In this document: piece by piece, positions 1 to 32,119 of the stretch | How positions within the stretch are numbered: position 1 is the stretch's first letter | How the letters are laid out: every line of letters starts with the position of its first letter | NCBI GenBank assembly: GCA_001464315.1 | Contig: LNFK01000069.1 | Span: 1 to 32,152, forward strand | Origin: Sphingomonadales bacterium Ga0077559 | GTDB taxonomy: Bacteria > Pseudomonadota > Alphaproteobacteria > Sphingomonadales > Sphingomonadaceae | DNA length: 32,152 nt | Direction: 5' to 3' | Notes under the pieces: model-generated | What the model was told of the DNA's origin: nothing | The model's database searches: none | The model's input: the letters and a program-made list of their open reading frames with translations, nothing else | Program-made: the position numbers and the translations under genes

Positions 1-794
1 CGGTCTTTGATGGCGCGAATATCCGCAAGCTGGAACACCGCCCCGTCCCAGACGCGGTGCGATGACACCTTGCCGTTGAGTTTGGTCTGCGGCGCCATTT
101 TTGCGTTCTTCAAGGACACATCGCCGCCCGCGATTTCCTTGCCCAGCCGCGCCACGCCCGGAATCGTGTTAGCCAGCGTCTTTGCGAACTGCACCGGCTG
201 CTTCACCGAGTTGAGCCATGTGCGGAACAGCATCTCGCCGAGCGCCGGATCAGATTCGGGCTTCCAATCCGATTTGACATTTTCCTGGACGGCCTTGGGC
301 TCAATGTCATGCACTGCCGCGCTCAACTCCACGCCGGACATTCCGTCGATGGCGGCGTGATGGACCTTTGCCATTAAAGCAAAGCTGCCTTTTGGAATGC
401 CCGGAATGTTATCCAGCCCTTCAATGATATTGAATTCCCACAACGGTCGCGAAAGGTCCATCGGTCGTGCCTGAAGACGCGCGACCTGAATACACAATTG
501 CCGCCAGTCACCCGGCTGAGGCAATGCCAGATGGCGGATATGATATTCGATGTCGAAATTGGCGTCCTCGACCCAATATGGGTGATCGAGATCGAACGGC
601 ACGCGCACCAATTTCTGGCGAAAGCTGCGCGCTTTATCGAGGCGGCTTTCGACGTGGTGGAGGATATCCTTGAAACGGACGAAGCCGCCAGGCGCGGTCG
701 AGGGGTCGTAAATCCCGACCGAGCCGATGTGCATCGGTGTTGTCGGCGTTTCCAGATAGACGAAACTCGCGTCCTGCCCGCTCAGCTGCTCCAT
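1..794 (-). CDS. Wax ester synthase / DGAT-family acyltransferase (3' part outside window)
   Basis: Open frame on the minus strand running off the left edge; the first 264 codons are visible. It begins MEQLSGQDASFVYLETP, typical of the WS/DGAT family N-terminus, and contains the catalytic motif HHAAIDG (HHxxxDG) at residues 145-151. Family members join acyl-CoA to a fatty alcohol or diacylglycerol, giving wax esters or triacylglycerol at the inner membrane face. Full-length members are about 450-500 residues, so roughly 40 percent is missing here. The start is the first ATG, with AGAGAGA just upstream. It is the last gene of a minus-strand run after threonine aldolase and the EamA exporter, 56 nt downstream of the latter. 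Family is secure from the motif; the true substrate (wax ester, TAG or other acyl acceptor) cannot be told. Confidence 0.88.
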   Translation of the reverse strand, partial: MEQLSGQDASFVYLETPTTPMHIGSVGIYDPSTAPGGFVRFKDILHHVESRLDKARSFRQKLVRVPFDLDHPYWVEDANFDIEYHIRHLALPQPGDWRQLCIQVARLQARPMDLSRPLWEFNIIEGLDNIPGIPKGSFALMAKVHHAAIDGMSGVELSAAVHDIEPKAVQENVKSDWKPESDPALGEMLFRTWLNSVKQPVQFAKTLANTIPGVARLGKEIAGGDVSLKNAKMAPQTKLNGKVSSHRVWDGAVFQLADIRAIKD

Positions 795-17692: not shown

Positions 17693-18745
17693 ATGCATTT
17701 TCTCGACCAAGCAAAGATTTTCATCCGTTCGGGCGCGGGCGGGCCCGGGGCTGTCAGTTTCCGGCGCGAGAAATATGTTCAATATGGCGGTCCCGATGGC
17801 GGCAATGGTGGCAAGGGCGGCAACATCATTTTTGAAGCGGTTGCTGGCCTGAATACGCTGATCGATTTCCGCTACGCCCAGCATTTCAAGGCGCAGCGCG
17901 GTATTCAGGGCATGGGCCGTGACCGTCACGGCGCTTATGGTGAAGACCTCGTCATCAAGCTGCCGGTGGGCACACAGGTGCTGGCCGATGATGAGGAGCG
18001 CACTTTGTTGCTCGACCTCACCGAAGTTGGCCAACGAGTCGTGTTCCTGAAGGGTGGCGATGGCGGGCGCGGGAACGCGTCTTACAAGACCTCGACCAAC
18101 CGCGCGCCAACGCAGCATGGGCCCGGCTGGCCGTATGAAGAAATGTATGTCTGGTTACGCCTGAAGCTTCTCGCCGATGCCGGTTTGGTCGGGATGCCCA
18201 ATGCCGGCAAATCGACCTTTATCAATCAGGTATCCAACACCAAGGCGAAGGTCGGTGCCTATCCCTTCACAACCATACGTCCGCAATTGGGCGTCGTCAG
18301 CCATAAAAGCCGCGAGTTCGTGCTTGCCGATATTCCGGGTCTGATTGCCGGGGCGGCCGAAGGTGTTGGCATTGGCGACCGCTTTTTGGGCCATATCGAA
18401 CGCTGCCAGATACTCATACATTTGATAGATGCGACGCAGGATGATCCGGTTCTGGCGTGGCAGACAGTATGCGACGAACTTGCTGATTATGGTGCAGGAC
18501 TTGAGGACAAGCCACAGATTGTGGCGCTGAACAAAGGCGATTTGCTCGATCCCGAACTGATGGCCGACATTGCGGCGCAATTGCAGGCGGCGGGCGCGCT
18601 GGATGTGATCGCGATTTCGGGCGCGACCGGGCAAGGCGTCCCCGAAGTGCTAGACCGCGTGCTTGAAGCCCTCCCAGCCAAGAGCGGGCTTGAGTCTACA
18701 CAAAACACAGGGATTTCGGAAGACGGGACATGGTCGCCGATCTAA
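17693..18745 (+). CDS. obgE: Obg family GTPase (CgtA)
   Basis: A 350-residue ribosome-associated GTPase used in 50S assembly and growth control. The glycine-rich Obg fold fills residues 1 to about 158 (RREKYVQYGGPDGGNGGKGG and LKGGDGGRGN). The G domain follows with the P-loop GMPNAGKST (167-175), DIPG (213-216) and NKGD (280-283). No large C-terminal OCT domain is present. The last 16 nt overlap the start of proB in another frame, so the two genes are coupled. Obg next to proB is a common alphaproteobacterial arrangement; here the run continues into the sphingolipid genes. Confidence 0.95.
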   Translation: MHFLDQAKIFIRSGAGGPGAVSFRREKYVQYGGPDGGNGGKGGNIIFEAVAGLNTLIDFRYAQHFKAQRGIQGMGRDRHGAYGEDLVIKLPVGTQVLADDEERTLLLDLTEVGQRVVFLKGGDGGRGNASYKTSTNRAPTQHGPGWPYEEMYVWLRLKLLADAGLVGMPNAGKSTFINQVSNTKAKVGAYPFTTIRPQLGVVSHKSREFVLADIPGLIAGAAEGVGIGDRFLGHIERCQILIHLIDATQDDPVLAWQTVCDELADYGAGLEDKPQIVALNKGDLLDPELMADIAAQLQAAGALDVIAISGATGQGVPEVLDRVLEALPAKSGLESTQNTGISEDGTWSPI

Positions 18746-19863
18746 ACCCTGCTGCCTTCCTGCCGACAACTTGCCCCCTGCTCGTGGTCAAGGTCGGCTC
18801 ATCGTTGCTGGTGCAGCCCAACGGCGGTGTACGCCGCGAATGGCTGGAAACTTTGGTCGCCGATATCAGTGCCCGGCATCAGGCAGGTCAGCGGATCATT
18901 ATCGTTACGTCGGGCGCGATTGCGCTCGGTGCGCGGCAGATGGGCTTTGACAAGGGCGGGCGGGCCAGTCTGGCCGATGCGCAGGCCGCGGCGTCCGTTG
19001 GGCAGATTATCCTCTCGGGGATTTGGGCAGAGTTGCTTGGGGGACAAGGTTTGGCTGCGGCACAACTGCTCGTGACCCTTGATGATCTTGAGGACCGGCG
19101 GCGTTATCTGAATATCGCGGCGACGCTCGACCGTTTGCTAGGCGCAGGCGCGGTGCCTGTGATCAACGAAAATGACAGCGTTGCAACGGAAGAAATCCGC
19201 TTCGGTGACAACGACCGTCTGGCTGCGCGGGTTGCGCAGGCAGCAGGGGCTGCGGGCGTTGTATTGCTGTCAGATGTTGATGGGCTTTACGACCGCGCGC
19301 CGCATTTGCCGGGAGCGGAGTTGTTGTCAGCAGTTGAAAAAATCGACGGACGCATCCGCATCATGGTCGCCGAAGGGTCATCGTCGGGCATGGGATCGGG
19401 CGGTATGGCGTCGAAACTTGATGCTGCCGATATTGCGACGCGGGCAGGCATTGGAATTGCTATTACCTCGGGCCTTAACGACCATCCCCTGGCGGCGCTG
19501 GAACAAGGCGGGCCGTCTACCTTCTTCGCGCCCCGCGAAGGCGGGTCGGCCCGCAAGAGCTGGCTCGGCGGGCGGCTCACGGTCAAGGGCCGAATCCGGG
19601 TAGATGACGGCGCTGTTCGCGCGCTAACCGCTGGTAGCAGCCTGCTTCCGGCAGGCGCTCTCAGCGTCGAAGGGGAATTCAAACGCGGCGACGTCATCGA
19701 CATCAGCGCCGATGACGGCATCGCCATCGCGCGCGGACTTTCGGAATATGATGCCATCGATGCCGCGCGAATCTGTGGACACCGGAGCGGTGAGCTGGAA
19801 GCCATTCTCGGAACCGTCCCGCGCTCGGTTCTGGTTCACCGCGATCAGTTGGTGCTGCTTTGA
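18730..19863 (+). CDS. proB: Glutamate 5-kinase with PUA domain
   Basis: A 377-residue enzyme catalysing the first step of proline synthesis, ATP-dependent phosphorylation of glutamate. The amino acid kinase domain (about residues 15-265) shows LLVVKVGSSLL, IVTSGAIALGARQMG, VINENDSVATEEIRFGDND and LLSDVDGLYD. GSGGMASKLDAADIATRAGI follows, and the C-terminal PUA domain covers about 285-370. In other bacteria ProB is inhibited by proline. The start lies inside the end of obgE (16-nt overlap) and the stop overlaps the TTG start of the epimerase gene by 4 nt, so it links obgE to the sphingolipid genes. Confidence 0.95.
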   Translation: MVADLNPAAFLPTTCPLLVVKVGSSLLVQPNGGVRREWLETLVADISARHQAGQRIIIVTSGAIALGARQMGFDKGGRASLADAQAAASVGQIILSGIWAELLGGQGLAAAQLLVTLDDLEDRRRYLNIAATLDRLLGAGAVPVINENDSVATEEIRFGDNDRLAARVAQAAGAAGVVLLSDVDGLYDRAPHLPGAELLSAVEKIDGRIRIMVAEGSSSGMGSGGMASKLDAADIATRAGIGIAITSGLNDHPLAALEQGGPSTFFAPREGGSARKSWLGGRLTVKGRIRVDDGAVRALTAGSSLLPAGALSVEGEFKRGDVIDISADDGIAIARGLSEYDAIDAARICGHRSGELEAILGTVPRSVLVHRDQLVLL

Positions 19864-20771
19864 AGACAGTCGCGCTGACCGGTGCAACAGGGTTTGTCGG
19901 ACGGATAACGCTTGACCGCTTAATAGAGGCAGGATGGAAAGTGCGAGCGCTAACCCGGCGTAACCAACCCAAAAAAGCTGGCGTGACCTGGGTTCATGGC
20001 GCGCTCGACCAGCCCGAAACCCTCGAAGAGCTGTGCGAAGGTGCGAGCGCCGTCCTGCATGTTGCTGGCGTTGTGAACGCGCTCGATGTTGCAGGATTCG
20101 AGGCTGGCAATGTCACCGGCACCGCAAATATGCTCGCTGCGGCGAAAGAAGCGGGCATTCGGCGTTTCGTACATGTCTCTTCACTTGCCGCAAAGCATCC
20201 GGAGCTTTCGCTTTATGGCGCGAGCAAGGCACGTGCGGAGAGGCTGGTCGGTGCTTCCATGCTCGACTGGACGATCATTCGCCCGCCCGGTGTTTACGGC
20301 CCCGGCGACACCGAGATGTTCGACATGTTCCGTCTGGCTGAGAAAGGTTGGGCAATATTGCCGCCGCGTGGGCGGGTATCAGTCATTCATGTCGACGATC
20401 TCGCGCGCTTGCTGGTGGCGTTATTGCCCGCGCATGACGACGCGACTGTTCGGATATTCGAGGCAGATGACGGCACAAGTGATGGCTGGACCCATGAAGC
20501 CTTCGCCCGCGCAATCGGCTGGGCGATCGGACGGCGAGTGAACACGCTTCATGCCCCGCGATTCTTGCTTAAACTCGCAGGACAAGCCGACCGGCTTTTT
20601 CGCGGGAAAAAGGCCAAGCTCACGCCTGACCGTGCCAGTTACCTGTCGCATCCCGATTGGACCACCGACCGCGCCGCCATACCATCACCTGCGCTTTGGA
20701 CACCGCAAATTGAAACGCGGCAGGGTTTGAAGGATACCGTGCGATGGTATCGGGCGCAGGGCTGGATGTAG
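19860..20771 (+). CDS. cerR: NAD-dependent epimerase/dehydratase family protein, candidate ceramide reductase
   Basis: A 303-residue extended short-chain dehydrogenase. The nucleotide-binding motif TGATGFVG is at residues 7-14, HVSSLAAKHP holds the serine, and YGASKA gives the Y119-x3-K123 catalytic pair; IRPPGVYGPGD is typical of the extended family. By context this is the Caulobacter CC_1164/CerR type: it lies directly before a dedicated ACP and serine palmitoyltransferase. In the bacterial pathway this enzyme reduces the 3-keto group of 3-ketoceramide, after N-acylation. The start is TTG at 19860, overlapping the proB stop by 4 nt. Fold is certain; the specific substrate is inferred from neighbours. 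Confidence 0.75.
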   Translation: MKTVALTGATGFVGRITLDRLIEAGWKVRALTRRNQPKKAGVTWVHGALDQPETLEELCEGASAVLHVAGVVNALDVAGFEAGNVTGTANMLAAAKEAGIRRFVHVSSLAAKHPELSLYGASKARAERLVGASMLDWTIIRPPGVYGPGDTEMFDMFRLAEKGWAILPPRGRVSVIHVDDLARLLVALLPAHDDATVRIFEADDGTSDGWTHEAFARAIGWAIGRRVNTLHAPRFLLKLAGQADRLFRGKKAKLTPDRASYLSHPDWTTDRAAIPSPALWTPQIETRQGLKDTVRWYRAQGWM

Positions 20772-20835
20772 CCAGATTTTGCCCTTATGCCGCCTTAATC
20801 GGTTGCCATAGGGCGGGCAATTAGAAGGAAATCAT

Positions 20836-21078
20836 ATGACCGAACGCAGCGACATGTTTGACCGGCTAAAGGGCCTGATTGAGCCGTTCAATAAAAAGGG
20901 TGTCGCCGTTACCGACTCAACGACCTTTGCCGGTGACCTTGAATGGGATAGCCTGACGGTCATGGATTTCGTCGCCGAGGTGGAGGATAGCTTCGATATC
21001 GTGATCACGATGAACATGCAGGCAGAAATCGAAAATGTCGGCCAGCTGGTCGATGCGGTAACGAAGCTGACGGATTGA
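20836..21078 (+). CDS. Dedicated acyl carrier protein for sphingolipid synthesis
   Basis: An 80-residue acyl carrier protein with the 4'-phosphopantetheine site at Ser39 in LEWDSLTVMDFVAEVED. It carries the fatty acyl group handed to serine palmitoyltransferase, the gene 7 nt downstream. The equivalent Caulobacter protein (AcpR) is required for ceramide synthesis and differs from the housekeeping AcpP. A GAAGGA sequence lies about 8 nt before the ATG. The acyl-ACP synthetase that loads it in Caulobacter is not in this window. Confidence 0.9.
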   Translation: MTERSDMFDRLKGLIEPFNKKGVAVTDSTTFAGDLEWDSLTVMDFVAEVEDSFDIVITMNMQAEIENVGQLVDAVTKLTD

Positions 21079-21085
21079 GCCTGCA

Positions 21086-22285
21086 ATGACCGACCTGTTC
21101 TCCAAATTCGATGCACTTATTGCGCAGCGTGAAGGCCTGCTTTCAACCGGCGTAATGGATCCTTTCAGCCTCGTGATGGAAGAGGTGAAATCACCCACCG
21201 TCGCGGTTGTGAACGGCAAGGAAACCATCCTGCTCGGCACCTATAATTATATGGGCATGACATTCGATGACGATGTCATTGCGGCTGGCAAGAAGGCGCT
21301 CGATGAGTTTGGTGCAGGCACCACTGGTAGCCGCGTTTTGAACGGTACGTTTCAGGGTCACAAAGAGTGCGAGGACGCGCTTAAAGAATTCTACGACATG
21401 AAATATGCGATGGTGTTTTCCACGGGCTATCAGGCCAATCTGGGAATCATCAGCACTATTGCAGGCAAGGGCGATTACATCATCCTTGATATCGACAGCC
21501 ATGCCTCGATTTACGATGGCTGCAAAATGGGCGATGCCGAAATCGTCGCGTTCCGCCACAATGATGTCGAAGCGCTCGAAAAGCGGCTGAAACGGCTGCC
21601 TGCCGATGCGGGCAAATTGGTGGTGCTTGAGGGCGTCTATTCGATGCTGGGCGACGTCGCTCCGCTGAAGGAAATGATCCGCGTGTCGAAAGAAGCAGGC
21701 GCGATGATATTGGTCGATGAGGCGCATTCGATGGGCTTTATCGGCGAAAATGGTCGTGGTGTTGCCGAAGAACAGGGCGTGCTCGATGATGTCGATTTTG
21801 TGATTGGCACGTTCAGCAAGTCGGTCGGTACCGTCGGCGGCTTCTGCGTATCGAACCATCCGAAGTTCGAAATCATGCGGCTGGTCTGCCGTCCTTATGT
21901 GTTTACCGCGAGCCTGCCGCCAGCAGTTGTCGCCTGTTCGGCAACCAGCATCCGCAAATTGATGCACGGCGGCAACAAGCGCGCGCATCTGTGGGAAAAT
22001 TCAAAAACGTTGCACAAGGGCCTGCGCGATCTCGGTTTCCAGCTTGGTACGCCAGAGGCGCAGAGCGCGATCATTGCGGTAATCATGCCCGACCTCGGAC
22101 AGGGTGCCATGATGTGGCAGGCTCTGCTGGAGAATGGCCTTTACGTAAACCTGGCCCGTCCGCCCGCAACTCCGGCGGGCATGACATTGCTACGTTGTTC
22201 GCTGTGCGCCGAGCATACAGCTGAACAGGTGGCAGATATTCTCGACCGTTTCGAACGCGCGGGCAAGGCCGTGGGAATTATTTGA
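21086..22285 (+). CDS. spt: Serine palmitoyltransferase (committed step of sphingolipid synthesis)
   Basis: A 399-residue PLP-dependent alpha-oxoamine synthase that condenses L-serine with a long-chain acyl thioester to 3-ketosphinganine. The PLP lysine is K245 in GTFSKSVGTVGG; His139 (DSHAS), Asp211 and His214 (DEAH) complete the site. These positions are each exactly 20 lower than the published residues of the Sphingomonas paucimobilis enzyme (K265, H159, D231, H234), which is about 420 residues long. The glycine-rich GAGTTGSRVLNGT is also typical. It is soluble with no membrane segment. Coupling to the ACP gene, rather than a KBL/CoA-ligase neighbour, supports SPT over 2-amino-3-ketobutyrate ligase or 5-aminolevulinate synthase. 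Confidence 0.93.
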   Translation: MTDLFSKFDALIAQREGLLSTGVMDPFSLVMEEVKSPTVAVVNGKETILLGTYNYMGMTFDDDVIAAGKKALDEFGAGTTGSRVLNGTFQGHKECEDALKEFYDMKYAMVFSTGYQANLGIISTIAGKGDYIILDIDSHASIYDGCKMGDAEIVAFRHNDVEALEKRLKRLPADAGKLVVLEGVYSMLGDVAPLKEMIRVSKEAGAMILVDEAHSMGFIGENGRGVAEEQGVLDDVDFVIGTFSKSVGTVGGFCVSNHPKFEIMRLVCRPYVFTASLPPAVVACSATSIRKLMHGGNKRAHLWENSKTLHKGLRDLGFQLGTPEAQSAIIAVIMPDLGQGAMMWQALLENGLYVNLARPPATPAGMTLLRCSLCAEHTAEQVADILDRFERAGKAVGII

Positions 22286-22301
22286 AAACCGCCGGGGCGA
22301 C

Positions 22302-22955
22302 ATGACCAGACTTGATCGCCGCGAACGCATCATGGCGACAGGTTTCGCCGCAATGGCGGGCATGGTCGATGCAATCGGGTTTATGGCAAGCGGCGGTTTT
22401 TTCTTATCATTCATGAGCGGTAACTCGACTCGGCTGAGCATCGGGCTGGCCGAAGGCGCTCCTTATGTCTTCATGGTCGCTGCACTGATTATCAGTTTTG
22501 TCTGCGGAGTAATTTGGGGCTCGCTGACCGGAAACGCCAAAAATACGGCGGCGAACAAGCGGCAGGCGGTGATATTGGCCGGAATTTCGGTATTGCTAGT
22601 CGTCGCGCCAATATTGGCAGATTTTGGATGGCTGCTTCCCGCCATTTGCGTCGCAGCTTTTTGCATGGGCGCAGAAAATACATTGTATGAACGCGAAGGT
22701 TCGATCTCGTTCGGGCTTACATACATGACTGGCGCGCTCGTAAAAATCGGCCAAGGTATCGCAACTTTGCTGCGCGGCGGATCAAAGACGGCGTGGTTGC
22801 CTTATTTATTCTTATGGGCGGGGCTGGTCAGCGGAGCGGTCATTGGCGCATTGCTGTTCACCAAATATAGCATTTACAGCCTGTGGATGCCGGGCGCACT
22901 TGCCGCGATTTTTGCTATGGTGTCGGCCCGAGCCAAGCCGTTGCCTAGAACCTAG
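22302..22955 (+). CDS. DUF1275 (YoaK) family membrane protein
   Basis: A 217-residue membrane protein with about six hydrophobic segments. The family pattern is clear: AGMVDAIGFMASGGFFLSFMSGNSTRL near the N-terminus (the F-x-S-F-M-S-G-N-S/T motif), CMGAENTLYEREGSISFGLTYMTGALVKIGQ in the middle, and a C-terminal segment near GAVIGALLF. Function is unknown; members are thought to be transporters. It begins 16 nt after spt, so it is probably co-transcribed with the ceramide genes. Its stop TAG shares the palindrome CTAG with the stop of the convergent gene. Confidence 0.85.
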   Translation: MTRLDRRERIMATGFAAMAGMVDAIGFMASGGFFLSFMSGNSTRLSIGLAEGAPYVFMVAALIISFVCGVIWGSLTGNAKNTAANKRQAVILAGISVLLVVAPILADFGWLLPAICVAAFCMGAENTLYEREGSISFGLTYMTGALVKIGQGIATLLRGGSKTAWLPYLFLWAGLVSGAVIGALLFTKYSIYSLWMPGALAAIFAMVSARAKPLPRT

Positions 22956-23875
22956 CGCACGGCGCCTTTCACCAGCAATCTCGGCACCAGAAACAGCGCC
23001 GCCACTAAAGGCCATCGCCTTTGCCATGGTTTTATCTCAATTTGCGTTCCGGCATGGCGGTTGATCTTCCATGCCAGATAATCGATGCCGCCTGCATACG
23101 TAAACGCCGCTTTGGCTAGCCGGGCGACAGTCAGCATTTTGCCGCGGCGGCGAAGTGCGGGCCAGCGTTTGCGCTCCTGCATAATCCGCCCGTACGGGTC
23201 AGGCAGTATGTGGACTTTGTCGCCGCGCAGTTCGTTGGCAATTGGCGTATGGCGCAGCGCGGCCAGGCCGAAGCGGTCGTAGCGTACCGGATCAAATTCA
23301 ACCACTGACGCAGGCCGGTCATTGCGCTCTGCGCGCAGTTCGGCACCATAGGTCATCTGGAACCCTGATTGCCACAAATCGAGTACGCCAACTTCGCGCT
23401 CGGTAGTTGCCAACGCTGCATTGAGCAATGCTGGTGCGGCGCCCGAAATCGCCTTTGCAGCCATCTTCCGAGCCGCATCATCTGCCGCCCACACCAATCG
23501 CGACGGCTGGGCAAAGCGCGCCCAAACCGACACCGCCGATGCCGCCGGCCGGTTGAGGTCGTGAAAATCCTCTTCGCTCAGTATCGCGACTTTGGCCATC
23601 AGGCGTTCAAACTGAAACGGAAAGACGTTCGGCGGCAAACGCCGGTTCCATTTTGCAAGCCACTTGCGATCATAGGCGGAATCATAGCCCGACACGATCA
23701 GATAGAAATCGAGCATCTGCCCTTCGAGCTGCTCCGAGCGCAGGCATGATCCGTAAAATAGCACCGCGCGGGCGGCATTGGGATATTGCGCTGCGATATA
23801 TTCAGCGAAGGCATGCACTTGTGGCAATGCCGGCACAGCGATTTCATCGGCTACCAGTTGGGTGAGCGAGAGCAT
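22952..23875 (-). CDS. Nucleotidyltransferase-like protein, possibly related to Tam41 cytidylyltransferases
   Basis: A 307-residue soluble protein without a signal peptide. Residues 38-61 read VLFYGSCLR, then MLDFYLIV: a GS motif (42-43) followed by a D-x-Y pair (D56, Y58) where classical nucleotidyltransferases have D-x-D. The downstream LAKWNRRLPPNVFPFQF recalls the region after the catalytic motif in mitochondrial Tam41, which makes CDP-diacylglycerol. The C-terminal 60 residues are basic and amphipathic (KAAFTYAGGIDYLAWKINRHAG and a final hydrophobic stretch), suggesting membrane contact. It follows the lipid kinase gene by 45 nt. One guess is that it activates or modifies phosphorylated ceramide; the Caulobacter ceramide-phosphoglycerate pathway needs two further genes besides its kinase, and I cannot say whether this is one of them. 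Confidence 0.55.
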   Translation of the reverse strand: MLSLTQLVADEIAVPALPQVHAFAEYIAAQYPNAARAVLFYGSCLRSEQLEGQMLDFYLIVSGYDSAYDRKWLAKWNRRLPPNVFPFQFERLMAKVAILSEEDFHDLNRPAASAVSVWARFAQPSRLVWAADDAARKMAAKAISGAAPALLNAALATTEREVGVLDLWQSGFQMTYGAELRAERNDRPASVVEFDPVRYDRFGLAALRHTPIANELRGDKVHILPDPYGRIMQERKRWPALRRRGKMLTVARLAKAAFTYAGGIDYLAWKINRHAGTQIEIKPWQRRWPLVAALFLVPRLLVKGAVR

Positions 23876-23920
23876 GTCCGCGCCTTAGCGGTTTTCATTA
23901 CAGCTTGTTAAGCAGGAATG

Positions 23921-24889
23921 TCAGGCGGCAAGACGGAGGAACGGAACCGGCGGTGTGGAGCGCAATACGATGGGCTGGCCCGACTTTGCCTCAAACACCT
24001 CACCGTCGAGAACCACGCTGCTCTGTTCGCTGTCGATCCGAATGCTATCGCCTTCTTGCAGATGGAGCCCGTTGACCTTGTGCCGCCCTATCCGTCCCAA
24101 TATCGATGTAAATATCGTGTGAATCATCGCGCCAGGGCGCTGATCAATTGCCAAGAATTTCATATTGCCGCGCCCAACCTCTCCGGCCTTGCTACCGAGT
24201 AGCAATTTTTCAAGCGTCGTCACGATAAGCACCGAGAATATTCCCTGCAACTCACCTTTGCGGACGAACGAAACGCTGACGGGTTTGGCACGCCTCGGAA
24301 GGAAATCCGCCTTCAAGCCAAAAATCGCTGAGAACATCACGGCTACCGCAGCCAAGAAATGACTTAGCCCGTTGGGCAGACCCAGCGGATAGATTTTGTG
24401 GCGGCAATAGAGGATGGTTTCGGCCAATCCTGCTCCGCCCAGAAACATGCCGAGGACGGGCCGCGCACCCTCGCTACCATCGGTGAGCGCGATCATTTCG
24501 CGCGCTACGATATGCGCCGACATGTCACCCTTTGCGACCTCGATGATGCGTTCCAGCGCAACGAGCGGATCTCCCTCGGCACCCAAATCGAGCGCGATCA
24601 AGTTGGTTTTGCCGTTCGGCAACACCGCCACTGGCGGCGGGTTACCGTTGAAATGGCCGCCATGGTAAAGCTCGGTCAACGCCGACTGAACGGTTCCATC
24701 ACCGCCATTGATAACCAGTACTTTGGGCTTGACCCTAGCAATCATTTCCAAGGCCTTTGGGACCTGCGTAATATCCTCAACCTCATAATGGAATATGTCG
24801 GGATGGCGGGCGCAATAGCACCGAACCGCCGGCAATAGCGATTTGTTGCCGGTCGAATTGGGGTTCGAAAGAAGTGCTACCAGGGCCAA
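23921..24889 (-). CDS. cpgB: LCB5/diacylglycerol kinase family lipid kinase, candidate ceramide kinase
   Basis: A 322-residue lipid kinase. The catalytic-domain motif VINGGDGTVQSALTEL (GGDGT at 62-66) and VLPNGKTNLIALDLG (in place of P-x-G-T-x-N-D) are visible, with LGMFLGGAGLAETI later and SSVVLDGEVFEA near the end (the G-E-x-x-DGE type motif). The family includes diacylglycerol and sphingosine kinases. In Caulobacter the homologue CpgB phosphorylates ceramide on the way to ceramide phosphoglycerate. Neighbouring ceramide genes make the same role likely here. The first in-frame start is TTG at 24889, 10 nt after the DUF2141 stop, with a weak ribosome site (ACGGA). Confidence 0.75.
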   Translation of the reverse strand: MALVALLSNPNSTGNKSLLPAVRCYCARHPDIFHYEVEDITQVPKALEMIARVKPKVLVINGGDGTVQSALTELYHGGHFNGNPPPVAVLPNGKTNLIALDLGAEGDPLVALERIIEVAKGDMSAHIVAREMIALTDGSEGARPVLGMFLGGAGLAETILYCRHKIYPLGLPNGLSHFLAAVAVMFSAIFGLKADFLPRRAKPVSVSFVRKGELQGIFSVLIVTTLEKLLLGSKAGEVGRGNMKFLAIDQRPGAMIHTIFTSILGRIGRHKVNGLHLQEGDSIRIDSEQSSVVLDGEVFEAKSGQPIVLRSTPPVPFLRLAA

Positions 24890-24899
24890 TAGGGTTCCG

Positions 24900-25376
24900 T
24901 CACATATATCTAAGGTTGATGGAAATGCGCGTCACACCGGGACCAGCCTGGAAAGCAACCTTGCTGACTGCCGGCTTGCCCAGGTTCAAAATGTTGATGC
25001 TCGGATTGTTTGAAAATCCGCCGCCATCCTGGCTGATATCGGTTTTGCCATTGGCATTGCGATCATGACGCACCGCGATGCCATATTTCCCTTCGGACGG
25101 TACCGGCACACAAAAGCTCATATTGCCCGCGTTGGCGCGGGTTTCGACACGATGTAGCCAGCGGCCCTTGGCCAGCCAGGCGCTACCGGTGGCAGGATAA
25201 GACTGCACGCGGATGCGTCCTGCCGATTCCTTCACACCGCGCACACTAACAAGCACCGCAGGGCCCTTGCCCGCAGCGCAGCGCGAAAGATCATTGCTGA
25301 CTTCCTGACCGGAAGCAATTGCAGCGCCCGAAAACAGCACCGCTGCAGCGGCCAAAGAGGCTAAAAACTTACTCAT
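24900..25376 (-). CDS. Secreted DUF2141 domain protein
   Basis: A 158-residue protein with a signal peptide (MSKFLASLAAAAVLFSGAAIASG, cut near residue 22). The DUF2141 pattern follows: AVLVSVRGVKESAGRIRVQSY, then VPSEGKYGIAVRHDRNANGKTD and GGGFSNNPSINILNLGKPAVSKVAFQAGPGVTRISINLRY, with the D-x-N-x-N-G-K-x-D loop resembling a calcium site. A conserved pair of cysteines (33 and 88 or so) could form a disulfide. Function is unknown. It is the first gene of the minus-strand kinase block, has a good ribosome site (AGGAGT) and diverges from lptF. Its position suggests a periplasmic part in sphingolipid handling, which is inference only. Confidence 0.82.
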   Translation of the reverse strand: MSKFLASLAAAAVLFSGAAIASGQEVSNDLSRCAAGKGPAVLVSVRGVKESAGRIRVQSYPATGSAWLAKGRWLHRVETRANAGNMSFCVPVPSEGKYGIAVRHDRNANGKTDISQDGGGFSNNPSINILNLGKPAVSKVAFQAGPGVTRISINLRYM

Positions 25377-25502
25377 TCTATTACTCCTGGAACATTATCC
25401 GCGGGCGCACCCTCCTGAGCACGCCATCGATATTGCCCCTGAACCTGTTACCGTCTATCGGATGAGTTTGCGGCCAAATTAGGGTGACAGGGCGACCATA
25501 AG

Positions 25503-26738
25503 TTGAAATTTCTGACCGCCACCGACCGCTACATCTTCCGACTTGTGATGCTGCCCCTGCTATCGACGCTGGCGATTGCCGCATCCTTGCTACTGCTGGA
25601 AAAGATGTTGAGCCTGTTCGATTTCGTCGCAGCCGAGGGTGGGCCGGTCAATATCGTTTGGCGCATGCTTGCTAATCTGCTGCCCGAATATCTCTCGCTC
25701 GGGATACCCATCGGGTTACTGCTTGGAATATTGTTGGCTTTCCGGCGCCTTGCAACTTCGTCAGAACTGGACATTTTCCGGGCGGTGGGGATGAGCTATT
25801 TTCGCCTGCTGCGCGTACCGTTCATGTTTGCGATTGCGCTGGCGGCAATCAACTTCACCATTGTCGGATTCCTTCAGCCGACTGCGCGCTACTATTATGA
25901 GGAACTTCGTTTCGAGCTGCGCTCGGGCGCGTTCGGGGCAAAGGTCCGCGTTGGCGAATTTAACAATGTAGGCGAAAATTTGACCGTGCGGATCGAGGAA
26001 AGCCGCAATAATGGCAATCAACTGACAGGCATGTTCGTATATGCCGAAAGCAAAAGCGGTCAATCGCTTGCGGTGACTGCAGAAGAGGGGCAATTCCTGC
26101 GCACCGACGATCCTGACACTATCCTGCTGCGGCTGGAAAAGGGCACTTTGGTGCACGATGCGCCCAATTTTAAAACACCACGGGTGCTCAGCTTTACCAG
26201 CCATGATGTGCCGATTCCCCTGCCGCGCATAGAAAATTTCCGGGCACGCGGCGGCAAGGACCGCGAATATGTCCTTACCGAATTGGTCCGCATCGGCGGG
26301 GATAGTGCAAAGCCGACAATCGAACGCAATAAGGCCTGGGCCAATTTCCATTTCCGCATGGTCGAAGTGGCGATGATGCTGCTGTTGCCGTTCCTGGCAG
26401 TTGCGCTCGCCGTTCCGCCCAAGCGATCAACATCTGCGCTTGGGGTGTTTCTCGCTATTGTGATGGTGGTGACTTATCATAAGATCAACGAATATGCCGA
26501 GGGTGTCGGAGGAATGGGAATCGTTGATCCATTCATCGCTTTGTGGGTGCCGTTCCTGTTCTTTGCAGCGCTGATCCTATGGATGTACCATATTATCGCG
26601 CATGTACCTGGCGGTCAGCCGATTGGCGCGCTCGAAGTGTTTGCCGACAAGATCGGCAAATCGATCCGCAAAACATTCAGCTTTGGACGCAAATCGCGAT
26701 TGGCAACGATCGGTATGCCCGAAAAGGAAGAACAATAG
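25503..26738 (+). CDS. lptF: LptF/LptG-family permease (LptF)
   Basis: A 411-residue permease of the LPS export ABC complex. The N-terminal DRYIFRLVMLPLLSTLAIAA leads into three membrane segments with PEYLSLGIPIGLLLGILLAFRRLATSSELDIFRAVGMS (coupling helix for the ATPase). A periplasmic jellyroll domain follows (about residues 140-270), then three more segments (RMVEVAMMLLLPFLAVALAV onward). LptB2FG takes lipid from the inner membrane and pushes it to LptC-LptA-LptD. The start is TTG at 25503; no ATG in frame precedes the first membrane segment. It directly abuts lptG. In a sphingomonad lacking LPS the lipid carried might be a glycosphingolipid. Confidence 0.9.
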   Translation: MKFLTATDRYIFRLVMLPLLSTLAIAASLLLLEKMLSLFDFVAAEGGPVNIVWRMLANLLPEYLSLGIPIGLLLGILLAFRRLATSSELDIFRAVGMSYFRLLRVPFMFAIALAAINFTIVGFLQPTARYYYEELRFELRSGAFGAKVRVGEFNNVGENLTVRIEESRNNGNQLTGMFVYAESKSGQSLAVTAEEGQFLRTDDPDTILLRLEKGTLVHDAPNFKTPRVLSFTSHDVPIPLPRIENFRARGGKDREYVLTELVRIGGDSAKPTIERNKAWANFHFRMVEVAMMLLLPFLAVALAVPPKRSTSALGVFLAIVMVVTYHKINEYAEGVGGMGIVDPFIALWVPFLFFAALILWMYHIIAHVPGGQPIGALEVFADKIGKSIRKTFSFGRKSRLATIGMPEKEEQ

Positions 26739-27827
26739 ATGCATTTCTTCCCTTCCCGCAACATCACGCTGTATATGGCAAAGCTCTTCGTAACGCGCAG
26801 TTTTGCCGTACTGATGATGCTTGTTCTGATCCTGATGACGCTCGATCTGCTCGGTGAAAGCGGCAAAATCCTCTCGGTTCCCGGGAATGATCAGGGCGAC
26901 GTCCTCAGCTATATCGGCATGCGCGCACCGCAGATTATCGCCCGGTTTTTGCCGTTTTCGGTGTTGCTCGGCACGATCATCACCTTTGCCACGCTAAGCC
27001 AAAATAGCGAGGTGGTCGCCATGAAGGCGGCGGGCCTATCCGCGCATCAGATACTGGCACCGATGTTTGTCGCCAGCTTTGCGGTCGCGGTGTTTTCCTT
27101 CGCTTTTGCAGAATCAGTGGTTGCTCCCAGCACCGCGAAGCTCAAAACTTGGCAGGCCGTCGACTATGGCACGGTTCCGGCCGACACTGGTATCCGAACG
27201 AATGTCTGGGTGCGCGAAGGACAGGATCTTATAAATGCGCGTACGGTAACGGGGTCGGGCGAAGCAACGAAATTGGGCGGTGTAAGTTTGTATCTGCGCG
27301 CAAACGGCGGACTGCGGCAAGTAGTTAAGGCCGATGAAGCGCAATATGCTGGCGGCGGATGGCAGCTGAGTCGAGTGTCGTCATTCGATGTTGCTACAAC
27401 TGAAGAGCAAAACTTCGAAGGGCTGGTCGTTGGCAAGGGCATCACGCCCGACCGCTTCAATTATGTCAAAGTCGACGGCGATAGCCTCGGGTTTTTCCCG
27501 CTGATGCGGGCGACTGAAGATATGAAGGCGGCGGGTCGGCGCACCGATAATCTTGAAGGCATATTATGGCATAAATTGTCGGGACCGCTTTCGACATTAC
27601 TGATGCCGCTGCTCGCTGCGGTCGCGGCCTTTGGCCTCGCGCGATCCGGCGCTTTGTTCCTGCGCGCGGTTATCGGCATGGCGCTTGGATTTGCCTATTT
27701 TGTCGCGGACAATTTTGCCCTCGCGATGGGTAATCTGGGCGCATATCCGCCCTGGATTGCGGCATGGGGTCCTTTCTTGCTGTTCTTCCTGATCGGCGAG
27801 ACCGTGTTGGTCCGAACCGAAGAATGA
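26739..27827 (+). CDS. lptG: LptF/LptG-family permease (LptG)
   Basis: A 362-residue partner of LptF. The N-terminal FPSRNITLYMAKLFVTRSFAVLMMLVLILMTLDLLGES is the usual LptG start. PFSVLLGTIITFATLSQNSEVVAMKAAGLSAHQIL follows as the coupling region with the conserved N-S-E. The periplasmic jellyroll occupies about residues 125-265 and three C-terminal helices begin near LWHKLSGPLSTLLMPLLA. The ATG starts on the base after the lptF stop. It is followed 10 nt later by the flippase gene, so lptF, lptG, flippase and ceramide synthase appear to form one operon. The ATPase LptB is not in the window. Confidence 0.92.
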   Translation: MHFFPSRNITLYMAKLFVTRSFAVLMMLVLILMTLDLLGESGKILSVPGNDQGDVLSYIGMRAPQIIARFLPFSVLLGTIITFATLSQNSEVVAMKAAGLSAHQILAPMFVASFAVAVFSFAFAESVVAPSTAKLKTWQAVDYGTVPADTGIRTNVWVREGQDLINARTVTGSGEATKLGGVSLYLRANGGLRQVVKADEAQYAGGGWQLSRVSSFDVATTEEQNFEGLVVGKGITPDRFNYVKVDGDSLGFFPLMRATEDMKAAGRRTDNLEGILWHKLSGPLSTLLMPLLAAVAAFGLARSGALFLRAVIGMALGFAYFVADNFALAMGNLGAYPPWIAAWGPFLLFFLIGETVLVRTEE

Positions 27828-27837
27828 ACACGCGCAT

Positions 27838-29379
27838 ATGAGCGGACCGATCGAAGACGCGCTGGTCCCGCCTGTGCCTGCGGTCAGCAATCAGGAAGTA
27901 GCAAAGGGCGCAGGCCTAGCGGCATTGTCGCGGCTCGGCGCGCTGATCGAGGTCGTTGCCCAGCCTGCCTATACATGGATGTTTGGGCTGACGGGCTATG
28001 GCGTCTATGTCGTTTTATGGGCGGCTATCAACATATTGGCGAACATTCTCGATCTTGCCATGGGGCAGGCGTTACAGCGCATCGTGCCCGCAGAGGATGA
28101 TCCAGAACGCCAACATGGCGCGGTCAAATTTGCGTTGTTGACCGGCACCGGGCTCGGGATTGCTGCAGCATTTGCGATCACATTATCGGCGGACTGGTTG
28201 GCCTCGTTTGTCGCAACGGCCCCCGAAGAAGCATCCGCTCTGCCATATGCGATAGCATTGTTTGCCTGGAGCTTGCCGCTATGGATATTCATTGAAATTG
28301 CTACCGCTGCTGCCCGCGCTAAGCGCGCCTTTGGCCCTGAAATACGCTTGCGGATTTTCTGGGAGCAGGTTGCGCGGCTATTATTTGCAACAGGGTTTTT
28401 TGCTTTGGGGTTCGACCTGACCGGGCTTTTGCTGGGCCATATGTTGTCGCTCGCGTTGACGGCGATATTGGCCGCGCAATTGCTCGGGCGATATTATGAT
28501 CTCAAGCTGCTACTCCGCGCACCCATGCCGCCTATGTTGCGCCGCTCGGTACTCGGCAGCGGTGCTGCGATAATGCCGCCGGCGATTGCGCGGCGCGCCT
28601 ATAACGACCTGCCGCCAATCTTGCTCAACCTGATGGTCCCGGGCGCAGCCGGTGCGACAGCGGCAGCGTTGTACGGAATTGCGCGCAAGATTGCGTCGAT
28701 CCCGTTGATCGTTCGCCAGTCATTTCTTTATGTGCTGTCGCCCTTGGCGTCGGCGCAGGCAGCGGCCGACCGCAGCGCGATGCTGCCGATGTATCGTTTT
28801 TCGACGCATATGTCGTTGCTGCTTGCGGTGCCGCTGGCAGGGTTCATGATACTGATAGCGTCGGATATGCTGAATGCATTTGCGCCGGGGTCGCAAGCCG
28901 CTCTTCCGGTCTTGGTCATCCTGCTGGCGGCCCGTGCGGGGGAGGCGGTGATTGGCCCTGCCACGCCGATTGTAGAGATGGTCGGCCATCGAGCGCTGCC
29001 GTTACTAAACAGCCTGATCGGTATGGCATTATGGCTAGCTCTGGCAATGTGGCTGGTTCCGCAATATGGCGCGCTGGGAATGGCGTTGGCGGTATCTGCC
29101 GCGGTGGTTGCAACGGCATGGGCAGCGGTCGCCGAGTTGCGGATCAGTGATGGGTTGTCGCCCTTCGGCGCGGGCTTTTGGCGGGCGCTCGCGGCAGGCG
29201 CCTTCGTCATTGCGATGTTAGCGGGGACCGGAACGGCGCTGATGTCCTTTGGTGCGCCGGTACGTGCGATTGGCCTGTTTATTCTTTTTTGGCCATTGCT
29301 TTGGCTCGGGCTGCGCTACGGTCTCGATGCGCCAGACAAAGCTGCGCTGGGAAAGCTCGGCCAAAGGCTGCGGCTGTAA
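27838..29379 (+). CDS. MOP-superfamily lipid/oligosaccharide flippase
   Basis: A 513-residue membrane protein with about 12-14 hydrophobic segments arranged in two halves, as in Wzx/MurJ-type and polysaccharide-synthesis flippases. The N-terminus NQEVAKGAGLAALSRLGALIEVVAQPAYTWMFGLTGYGVY is typical (G-x-x-x-x-x-x-R and an amphipathic start). IVEMVGHRALPLLNSLIGMALWLALAMWLVPQYGALGMALA is the second-half pattern. Proteins of this kind turn lipid-linked glycans over across the inner membrane. Placed between lptG and ceramide synthase, it could flip a ceramide-linked oligosaccharide, but a role in capsule or O-antigen-like glycan is equally open. No glycosyltransferase lies in the window. Confidence 0.8.
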   Translation: MSGPIEDALVPPVPAVSNQEVAKGAGLAALSRLGALIEVVAQPAYTWMFGLTGYGVYVVLWAAINILANILDLAMGQALQRIVPAEDDPERQHGAVKFALLTGTGLGIAAAFAITLSADWLASFVATAPEEASALPYAIALFAWSLPLWIFIEIATAAARAKRAFGPEIRLRIFWEQVARLLFATGFFALGFDLTGLLLGHMLSLALTAILAAQLLGRYYDLKLLLRAPMPPMLRRSVLGSGAAIMPPAIARRAYNDLPPILLNLMVPGAAGATAAALYGIARKIASIPLIVRQSFLYVLSPLASAQAAADRSAMLPMYRFSTHMSLLLAVPLAGFMILIASDMLNAFAPGSQAALPVLVILLAARAGEAVIGPATPIVEMVGHRALPLLNSLIGMALWLALAMWLVPQYGALGMALAVSAAVVATAWAAVAELRISDGLSPFGAGFWRALAAGAFVIAMLAGTGTALMSFGAPVRAIGLFILFWPLLWLGLRYGLDAPDKAALGKLGQRLRL

Positions 29380-29418
29380 ATCATTGACAGTTGGTGCGCG
29401 CCGACTCAGGAAACGACC

Positions 29419-30570
29419 ATGACCGAAATCATCATCCGCCCCGTCCTGACCAAGGCCGACAAAAAGGCATTCGTGGATTTGCCGTTCCGCCTATACGCCA
29501 GCGACCCCAACTGGGTGCCGCCGTTGAAGGACGAGGTTCATGCCCTGATTACGCCGGGCAAGAATCCCTGGTTCGAACATGGCGAGGCGGAGTGTTTCTT
29601 GGCTCAGCGCGATGGCCATATCGTCGGTAGGATATCGGCACATATCGACCATCTCGCGCTTGCGCAGCCGGTCGAACAGGGCATGGGTCCCGGGGCGGGT
29701 AATTGGGGTATGTTCGAAGCGGTCGATGCTGAGGTCGCTGCGGCGCTTATCGCCCGCGCCGAAGATGCGCTCCACGCCAAAGGCATGACGCGTTCGATTG
29801 GACCGATAAGCCTGGCGATGTGGGATGAGCCCGGGTTGCTAGTTGAGGGCTTTGAACAGCCGCCGGTGGTGATGATGGGCTTCAATAGCTCAGCATACGG
29901 CGCATGGGTCGAGGCAGCGGGTTATATGGGCGTTCAGGATTTGCTGACATATGACCTTCCCATTGCAGACGGTTTGCCCGAACTCACCAACAGGATCGTT
30001 GCGATGGGCGAAAGGTCGGGCAGAATACGGATCCGCCGCGTTGATAAAAGTCGCTTCGATGAAGAGGCTGCACTTTTGCTGCGCTTATTGAACGACGCAT
30101 GGAGTGATAATTGGGGCTTCGTGCCGTTCACCGACGCAGAGATCGCTTATGCCGGGAAAAAGTTGAAACCGATCGTCTATGAAGACCTGATCCGCGTAGC
30201 CGAGGTCGACGGCGAACCCGTTGCCTTCATGATGACGATTCCGGATATCAACGAAAAGCTTCGCGAATTCGGTGGCTCACTGTGGCCATTCAATTGGGCA
30301 AAACTGCTTTGGTGGTTGCGCAAGCCACAAGTAACCACGATGCGCGTGCCGTTGATGGGCGTCGTCAAACGCCTGCAATCCAGCCGCATGGCGAGCCAGT
30401 TGGCCTTCATGCTTGTCGAATATATCCGCCGTGACGCGACTGCCAAATTCGGTGCCACAAGGGGTGACTTTGGTTGGGTGCTGGCGAGCAACGGGCCGAT
30501 GCGCTCGGTTGGTGAGGCGGTCGGCGGCACGGTCAACAAGGTATACCGGATCTATCAAAAAGCGCTCTGA
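29419..30570 (+). CDS. bcerS: Bacterial ceramide synthase (GNAT-fold N-acyltransferase)
   Basis: A 383-residue GNAT-like protein of the type found in Caulobacter (CC_1154/CCNA_01212), which N-acylates 3-ketosphinganine to 3-ketoceramide. The N-terminus IIRPVLTKADKKAFVDLPFRLYASDPNWVPPLKDEVHALI and HGEAECFLAQRDGHIVGRISAHIDHLAL are typical of this group, as are SIGPISLAMWDEPGLLVEGFEQPPVVMMGFN and the C-terminal RGDFGWVLASNGPMRSVGE. Older annotations often call such genes N-acetyltransferase. It lies 39 nt after the flippase gene and about 7 kb from spt. Family is recognised from memory; function depends on the spt/acp/cerR context and is likely but unproven. Confidence 0.78.
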   Translation: MTEIIIRPVLTKADKKAFVDLPFRLYASDPNWVPPLKDEVHALITPGKNPWFEHGEAECFLAQRDGHIVGRISAHIDHLALAQPVEQGMGPGAGNWGMFEAVDAEVAAALIARAEDALHAKGMTRSIGPISLAMWDEPGLLVEGFEQPPVVMMGFNSSAYGAWVEAAGYMGVQDLLTYDLPIADGLPELTNRIVAMGERSGRIRIRRVDKSRFDEEAALLLRLLNDAWSDNWGFVPFTDAEIAYAGKKLKPIVYEDLIRVAEVDGEPVAFMMTIPDINEKLREFGGSLWPFNWAKLLWWLRKPQVTTMRVPLMGVVKRLQSSRMASQLAFMLVEYIRRDATAKFGATRGDFGWVLASNGPMRSVGEAVGGTVNKVYRIYQKAL

Positions 30571-30682: not shown

Positions 30683-32119
30683 ATGGCGATAGCATCATCT
30701 ATTGCGGCCAATCGTTTCGGATTGGGTGCACGCCCGAATGAGGTAATTCCCGCCGATCAGAAAGGCTGGTTGAAACGGCAAATCAAGGAATTTGATCCGG
30801 CACCGCAAGAACTCGAAGGCCAACCCAGCCGGTCCCAGATCGCGGCAGAATTTCGCGAATATCAAATCGACCGCAAAGACCGGCGGGACGCGATGAAGCA
30901 AGCCGCCTCGACCCAACCTGCCGACACAGCCTTCGATCCCGCGCAAATCGAAAAGGTCGTCAACAGTTTGCGCGCCCGCTATGTCGCTGCAGCCGATGCC
31001 CGGCTCAGCGCAGCTTTGGCCAGCGACACGACCTTTGCCGAGCGGCTGGTCCATTTTTGGTCCAACCATTTTGCCGTATCGATCGATAAGCTGCCGGTAT
31101 TGGGGCTTGGCGGCGATTTTGAATTCAATGCTATCCGGCCAAATATCATGGGCACGTTTTCGCAGCTGCTGACGTCTGCGGTCACGCATCCCGCGATGCT
31201 GCTCTACCTCGATCAGGCGCAATCGATTGGCCCCGGTAGTCCGCTCGCCCAACGCATTGCCGCCCGGCGCAACCGGGAGCTGGGGCTTAACGAAAATCTG
31301 GCGCGCGAGATATTGGAACTACACACGCTTGGCGTTCGGACGGTGTATGACCAGAATGATGTCACCGAATTCGCCCGCGCGCTGACCGGCTATACGGTGG
31401 GCGGTATGGCAAAAGGCCCCGTGCAGCGATTGCTGATGCAAAGCGGCGGCGCGGGCGATACGCAATTTTTTGCGCCAATCCATGAACCGGGCGAGCGGCA
31501 GGTCGTGGGCAATCAGTACCGCCAGCAAGGTGAGGCGCAGGCCAAAGCGATCCTTGCTGATCTGGCTGTCCATCCCGCTACCGCCAAACATATCGCGACC
31601 AAACTTGCGGCGCATTTTGTTGCAGATAATCCGCCCGAAACATTGGTCGCGCGGGTGGAGCAGGCGTTTCTTAAAAGCGGCGGTGATCTGCAAGCTGTCT
31701 ATATTGCGTTGATCGACGCCCCAGAGGCTTGGTTGCCGCAGCAAGCCAAATTCAAATCGCCATGGGATTGGACCGTGTCCTCTCTCCGCGCACTTAACGT
31801 ACGCACGCTACCGGGCAATGAGCGGCAAACAGTCAATATGTTCACGCAAATGGGGCAGCCGATTTGGCGTCCCGGCTCACCTGCAGGTTTTGCCGATACA
31901 TCCGAAAATTGGGCAGGCGGTGCTGCCTTAATGCGGCGGGTGGAAATCGCAAACCGCTTGGCCGAGCGTAGCGCCAACCGTGTCGATGCCCGCACTCTGG
32001 CACCGCTGATTTTGGCAGGACAGTTGAGCCCGGTGACAGGCGAGAGCATAGCTCGCGCCGAAAGCCCGTCGCAGGGCCTTGCCCTATTCTTGCTGTCTCC
32101 AGAATTTTTGAGGAGGTGA
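30683..32119 (+). CDS. DUF1800 domain-containing protein
   Basis: A 478-residue protein of the DUF1800 family. The N-terminus IAANRFGLGARPNE (R-F-G-x-G), then LSAALASDTTFAERLVHFWSNHFAVSID, FSQLLTSAVTHPAMLLYLD and NRELGLNENLAREILELHTLGV are all family marks (N-E-N-x-A-R-E-x-L-E-L-H-T-L-G). No signal peptide is obvious. Function is unknown; it almost always sits beside a DUF1501 gene, as it does here. The stop codon lies within the ribosome binding site of that next gene, so the two are tightly coupled. Confidence 0.92.
   Translation: MAIASSIAANRFGLGARPNEVIPADQKGWLKRQIKEFDPAPQELEGQPSRSQIAAEFREYQIDRKDRRDAMKQAASTQPADTAFDPAQIEKVVNSLRARYVAAADARLSAALASDTTFAERLVHFWSNHFAVSIDKLPVLGLGGDFEFNAIRPNIMGTFSQLLTSAVTHPAMLLYLDQAQSIGPGSPLAQRIAARRNRELGLNENLAREILELHTLGVRTVYDQNDVTEFARALTGYTVGGMAKGPVQRLLMQSGGAGDTQFFAPIHEPGERQVVGNQYRQQGEAQAKAILADLAVHPATAKHIATKLAAHFVADNPPETLVARVEQAFLKSGGDLQAVYIALIDAPEAWLPQQAKFKSPWDWTVSSLRALNVRTLPGNERQTVNMFTQMGQPIWRPGSPAGFADTSENWAGGAALMRRVEIANRLAERSANRVDARTLAPLILAGQLSPVTGESIARAESPSQGLALFLLSPEFLRR

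Follow-up and report, generated by a model that had tools for sequence, protein, structure and literature searches.

How do bacterial sphingolipids reach the outer membrane? The question is raised by a locus of Sphingomonadales bacterium Ga0077559, which we analysed within a window of 32,152 nucleotides (contig LNFK01000069.1, the whole stretch of DNA considered here), from a draft genome of 2.86 Mb with a completeness of 99.8%. In this window genes assigned to ceramide synthesis are found together with lptF, lptG and genes for a flippase, a lipid kinase and a nucleotidyltransferase. The route of sphingolipids to the outer membrane is presently not known according to the accessible part of PMC11324152, and the authors of a 2024 localisation study write, in the portion of the text available, that they have identified no flippase or lipid transporter yet for bacterial sphingolipids (PMC11087976).

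Judging from sequence comparisons, we consider it probable that the locus forms a make-activate-export module for sphingolipids, in which LptF and LptG would feed sphingolipid to LptD. The original prediction had proposed a complete make-modify-export module. Its make-modify-export part is supported because of the synteny observed in the order Sphingomonadales and beyond, together with the LpxC and LptFG pattern: it stands for spt, acp, cerR, bCerS, the kinase, the nucleotidyltransferase, lptF and lptG, with less weight for the flippase, and it fails for DUF1275. The word complete does not apply to the window: a scan of its proteins, which did not extend to other contigs, showed no aasR, LptC, CpgA or CpgD gene.

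The transport idea for the ceramide cluster is not new, since it has been published for Caulobacter: the available text of PMC11324152 names LptC2, LptF2, LptG2 and a flippase of the CC_1168-CC_1152 cluster as probable transporters. New here are the LpxC/LptD/LptFG pattern, the LptF/LptG clade, the recurrence across phyla, the Tam41 fold and the flippase co-occurrence.

Layout and conservation of the locus

The three blocks are located where they had originally been placed, and coordinates and family matches bear out the gene list. On the plus strand cerR-acp-spt (19860-22285) comes first, followed by the nucleotidyltransferase, the kinase and DUF2141 on the minus strand (22952-25376) and, after a gap of 126 bases, by lptF-lptG-flippase-bCerS on the plus strand (25503-30570):

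19860..20771, plus strand: cerR-like candidate NAD(P)-binding ketoceramide reductase (Pfam NAD_binding_10/Epimerase); adjoins acp-spt across the order
20836..21078, plus strand: acyl carrier protein for Spt (PF00550, PP-binding, 33.9 bits); kept beside spt
21086..22285, plus strand: spt, serine palmitoyltransferase (NCBIfam equivalog NF047603, 793.1 bits against a cut-off of 670)
22952..23875, minus strand: nucleotidyltransferase of 307 amino acids with Tam41-like fold, in the CpgC (CC_1161) place; proposed ceramide-1-phosphate cytidylyltransferase
23921..24889, minus strand: DAGK-type (DAGK_cat) lipid kinase, in the CpgB (CC_1160) place (PF00781, 50.4 bits); proposed ceramide kinase
24900..25376, minus strand: DUF2141 protein (PF09912, 72.7 bits)
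25503..26738, plus strand: lptF, of the mostly bCerS-linked type (TIGR04407, 232.3 bits, just above the cut-off of 230)
26739..27827, plus strand: lptG, of the mostly bCerS-linked type (TIGR04408, 310.3 bits against a cut-off of 240)
27838..29379, plus strand: Wzx-like flippase (Polysacc_synt, PF01943, 33.5 bits against a cut-off of 28.2)
29419..30570, plus strand: bCerS, candidate bacterial ceramide synthase of 383 amino acids; in 97 of 99 order genomes

No other strong copy of Spt was found in the window's genome. The kinase contains the GGDGT motif, and the N-terminus of the DUF2141 protein resembles, by eye, a secretion signal. The cerR-like protein scores above the cut-off of no NCBIfam model. 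As the bCerS protein matches no Pfam or NCBIfam model at all, it is named by its position in the gene order and by its conservation.

The arrangement is widely conserved in the order, for which 99 genomes were drawn evenly. Spt is found in 95 of them (E up to 1e-120). Linkage between lptFG and bCerS was scored in 89 of the 92 LptFG-positive genomes, mostly with one row per genome: the pair is within 12 kb of bCerS in 84, on the same strand in all 84, and on a different contig in the remaining five. A simple calculation places a single-copy lptFG pair within about 12 kb of any one gene by chance in roughly 1% of genomes of 3 Mb, so the observed linkage exceeds chance. Proximity to spt is observed in 71/86 genomes, and lptFG, spt and bCerS all stand together in 68/86. 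In 40 other loci fetched from the order the three-block layout is clearly recognisable in several families, and fatty-acid hydroxylase or desaturase genes often adjoin bCerS. The nucleotidyltransferase is missing from the locus in 20 of the 40, mostly in the window's own family.

We also fetched 80 named bCerS loci, the best 80 of at least 583 matches. Among the 46 of these that span at least 15 kb, lptG is within reach in 37 and lptF in 35; the 37 linked loci come from Alpha-, Beta- and Gammaproteobacteria, Thermodesulfobacteriota and Nitrospirota. Restriction of the synteny to a single strain, which would have spoken against the original prediction, was not observed: the linkage extends across the order and recurs outside it.

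The locus is an order-wide variant of the known cluster of Caulobacter crescentus (CC_1168-CC_1152). As far as the accessible text of PMC11324152 describes that cluster, cerR, acp, spt, the genes in the CpgC and CpgB places, lptF2, lptG2 and bCerS have the same relative order in both, and both include a flippase. This match was made through gene order and locus L135 (LptG groups with a Caulobacteraceae contig), not through C. crescentus sequences. As had been proposed, Spt, its carrier protein, the candidate ketoceramide reductase and the candidate ceramide synthase fill places of the Caulobacter set; of its five ceramide genes (aasR, cerR, acpR, spt and cerS) four have their places filled, with no family model for bCerS. 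Unlike in C. crescentus, the window's order is without LpxC, its genome has one LptFG pair, and the flippase stands between lptG and bCerS; the cluster's aasR, cpgA, CC_1158, CC_1153, cpgD and LptC2 are not seen in the window. The available part of PMC11324152 also calls the ceramide-cluster genes of two Sphingomonadales species scattered, covering up to 17 genes, whereas the core genes scored here are mostly together in the order sample.

LpxC, LptD and the two types of LptF and LptG

LpxC, the one lpx gene searched for, was found in 0 of the 99 order genomes, while the same search detected it in the controls, E. coli and Caulobacter. LptD is present in 97 and LptFG in 92. Exactly two LptFG genes are found in 78 of these 92, the window's genome included, where they are the pair in the window itself.

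A sample of 349 genomes from the phylum contains bCerS in 33 and LpxC in 317. Without LpxC, 22 genomes have bCerS and 10 do not; with LpxC these numbers are 11 and 306. When the order is excluded the counts become 5 and 10 against 11 and 306 (the ten genomes lacking both were obtained by subtraction), and because the genomes are related the Fisher p of 0.0003 serves as a guide only. LptFG copies were examined in 26 selected genomes, of which 16 have bCerS and 10 lack it. Four of the five with bCerS and without LpxC carry one LptFG pair, about 2 kb or less from bCerS in three and about 12 kb away in one. Genomes with both LpxC and bCerS have four LptFG-type genes in 7 cases and two in 4, and those without bCerS have two in nine cases and four in one. 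No paper on this LpxC/LptFG pattern was found in searches of open literature, subscription papers being mostly outside that coverage.

Phylogenies point to two types of permease. In the LptF tree (45 rows) 14 rows of the order and nine other alphaproteobacterial rows are on one side of a branch supported at 100/99. Six of the nine are near bCerS (one 12 kb and one 6 kb off), and the others are one copy each from G136, G381 and G401. The corresponding branch in the LptG tree is supported at 96/94. All six alphaproteobacteria with two pairs have one copy in each group. The window's pair groups with a mostly bCerS-linked LptF2/LptG2 type, apart from the LPS (lipopolysaccharide) type. There is good comparative evidence that the LptFG of the window is sphingolipid-linked in type and that its genome carries no other pair. 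As in the LPS Lpt system, LptF and LptG pass the NCBIfam cut-offs and LptD is kept in the order; the differences are the missing LpxC and the separate clade of the permeases.

The window's type also includes rows from Burkholderiales and Nevskiaceae, which suggests transfer. A single clade of all bCerS-linked sequences is rejected for LptG (approximately unbiased test, p 0.008) and not rejected for LptF (p 0.145). With an earlier LptF set it was rejected (p 0.0009), though with long branches flagged by a warning; that set still held the long branch L160, which was omitted from the two trees described above. L156 (a frame of 907 amino acids) was omitted from the LptF trees, and over-long frames were trimmed. 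One further locus, L149 (G198), has an LptG that groups with Nitrosomonas; here no LpxC match is found and one LptFG pair lies beside bCerS.

Headgroup genes and neighbouring genes

The nucleotidyltransferase and DUF2141 had been regarded as unexplained partners. The former has a clear fold relative, the cytidine diphosphate (CDP)-diacylglycerol synthase Tam41, and the latter travels with the nucleotidyltransferase. The fold agrees across most of the nucleotidyltransferase and winged-helix parts (domain names follow the available part of PMC7018664). The window's protein has no Pfam match, and the Tam41 family is missing among the Pfam matches of 16 nucleotidyltransferase members at E up to 1. 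Its proposed lipid partner, ceramide-1-phosphate, would also set it apart from Tam41. Nothing on CDP-ceramide was found in a search of open literature. The kinase and nucleotidyltransferase have the same place and orientation as in L135. In four loci of family f8 (L066, L068, L069 and L070) the nucleotidyltransferase is lost and the kinase is kept in place without the GGDGT motif, possibly as a pseudo-enzyme. L067 has the nucleotidyltransferase, and its kinase is without the exact GGDGT string.

The flippase is present in 54 of the 99 order genomes. It occurs in 53 of the 56 genomes with a strong nucleotidyltransferase match against 1 of the 43 without (a genome that is 64% complete), eight weak matches of 204-226 bits being scored as absent. 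Both sampled congeners of the window lack the flippase, whose occurrence here is accordingly patchy. Loci with the nucleotidyltransferase carry DUF2141 in 19 cases of 21 and those without it in 3 of 20, leaving out a 40-bit match in L042. The available part of PMC11324152 indicates that its authors thought CC_1157 unrelated. If CC_1157 is the Caulobacter DUF2141 gene, as the gene order of L135 suggests, the co-occurrence speaks for its membership in the module.

Two sets of neighbours were considered as parts of the module and rejected:

22302..22955, plus strand: DUF1275 protein (PF06912, 115.4 bits)
17693..19863, plus strand: obgE-proB, family-level neighbours (NCBIfam above cut-off)

DUF1275, a transport candidate in the original prediction, is present in 1 of the 40 other loci, that one from a congener. 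The genes obgE (6/40) and proB (5/40) are near cerR only within the window's own family. Directly after bCerS lies a gene for a DUF1800 protein (PF08811, 379 bits; 30683-32119, plus strand) that tblastn at E 1e-5 detected in none of the 40 other loci. About 8 kb upstream of obgE an Omp85-type protein is followed by a TamB protein (PF04357, 202.7 bits; together 2910-9457, plus strand). The former does not reach the cut-off of the NCBIfam models for either BamA or TamA; the two form a TamA/TamB-like pair and are a candidate for another envelope bridge. The left end of the contig encodes a wax ester synthase / DGAT catalytic domain (PF03007, 216.8 bits; 3-794, minus strand).

A proposed sphingolipid route and its alternatives

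All substrates and transport steps of the following route are inferred, as are LptB, LptC and LptA. (Dihydro)ceramide would be the product of Spt, its carrier protein, bCerS and CerR, and the DAGK-type kinase would phosphorylate it. Most likely the Tam41-like nucleotidyltransferase would use cytidine triphosphate to convert ceramide-1-phosphate into CDP-ceramide for a phospho-headgroup. The flippase would carry the headgroup lipid across the inner membrane. LptF and LptG would extract the sphingolipid from the inner membrane and hand it to LptD at the outer membrane, with LptB and the remaining Lpt bridge presumed elsewhere in the genome. In this LpxC-less order LptF and LptG are of the bCerS-linked LptF2/LptG2 type and mostly the sole pair left.

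A number of observations weigh against this route. Among the 92 order genomes with LptFG, 13 show three to five matches, so that some genomes hold more than the one pair, and one genome has a single match. The second copy is far from bCerS in three of the six two-pair alphaproteobacteria (G136, G381 and G401), and 9 of the 46 longer named loci, again from the best 80, are without both lptF and lptG. G233 has bCerS and neither LpxC nor LptFG. Four genomes with LpxC and bCerS (G138, G197, G280 and G284) have no second LptFG pair and no LptFG-type gene adjoining bCerS; these genes are on other contigs in G138 and G197, far away in G280, and one is 13 kb away in G284. In genera g20, g29 and g34 of family f2, LptFG was not found in 5/5 draft genomes (66-95% complete), which keep Spt and LptD and, in four of five, bCerS. 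Two g29 loci (L251 and L252) are unbroken with no lptFG between DUF2141 and the flippase, and in the g20 locus L063, where lptF-lptG is missing, bCerS comes directly after DUF2141. In these genera the pair has either moved to unassembled DNA or been replaced by another exporter. As to the headgroup genes, the nucleotidyltransferase has no Tam41 match by sequence in PDB or Pfam, three genomes of the window's family have it without the flippase, and the link between the two genes is based on four informative independent pairs in a 41-locus tree, all in agreement (p 0.125).

LptD and LptFG are established components of LPS export and LpxC occurs in 317 of the 349 phylum genomes, so LPS export is the common use of these proteins. 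It might be argued that LptFG of the window still exports an LPS-like glycolipid made without LpxC, or some other polymer lipid, and adjoins the ceramide genes since both serve the envelope. Against this speaks the absence of LpxC from all 99 order genomes, within a search that did not include other lpx genes. Moreover, the pair kept by the order belongs to the type that forms the second copy in two-pair alphaproteobacteria, near bCerS in three of six, and we regard LPS-like export as improbable. Even less credible is a neighbourhood inherited by descent without shared function. The obgE-proB genes likewise adjoin cerR within the window's family, and half of the other loci lack the nucleotidyltransferase, as such a history would allow; however, the same genes meet in differing orders and orientations in other classes and phyla, and both the flippase and DUF2141 are mostly present or absent together with the nucleotidyltransferase.

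Greater doubt concerns individual genes. The flippase could move a polysaccharide carrier lipid, its tie to the nucleotidyltransferase being a phylogenetic coincidence. The Polysacc_synt match is weak and generic, the independent pairs are those four, and in five genomes of the family (G035, G059, G080, G088 and G097) the flippase is separated from bCerS by about 45-70 kb or lies on a different contig. Given the 53/56 against 1/43 distribution, and since many loci of other families have the flippase between lptG and bCerS, we find this explanation unlikely, though it retains some weight. Slightly less weight is given to a nucleotidyltransferase that activates something besides ceramide-1-phosphate (for example glycerate or phosphoglycerate), or that uses ATP.

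Returning to sphingolipid export, the related bacteria sampled seem to lack LPS, and the Lpt machine would then most likely carry ceramide-type lipids to the cell surface. The term 'Lpt' does not occur in the accessible part of PMC11334938. A broader proposal, for which we see the arguments as evenly balanced, is that the Lpt bridge is no LPS machine by nature. The bCerS-linked LptF2/LptG2 of several phyla would be dedicated to sphingolipids, and lineages losing LPS would have held on to this variant and to the old bridge, LptD included. The outer leaflet of Sphingomonadales would thereby be supplied by a sphingolipid-fed Lpt system. The Tam41-like enzyme would make CDP-ceramide, and the Wzx-like flippase would serve the phospho-headgroup branch only.

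An order without LpxC that keeps LptD and has mostly a single LptFG pair beside the ceramide synthase is a natural experiment, as it makes the question of sphingolipid transport testable without LPS interfering. If the proposed route is true, the Lpt bridge would be able to serve a wholly different lipid.

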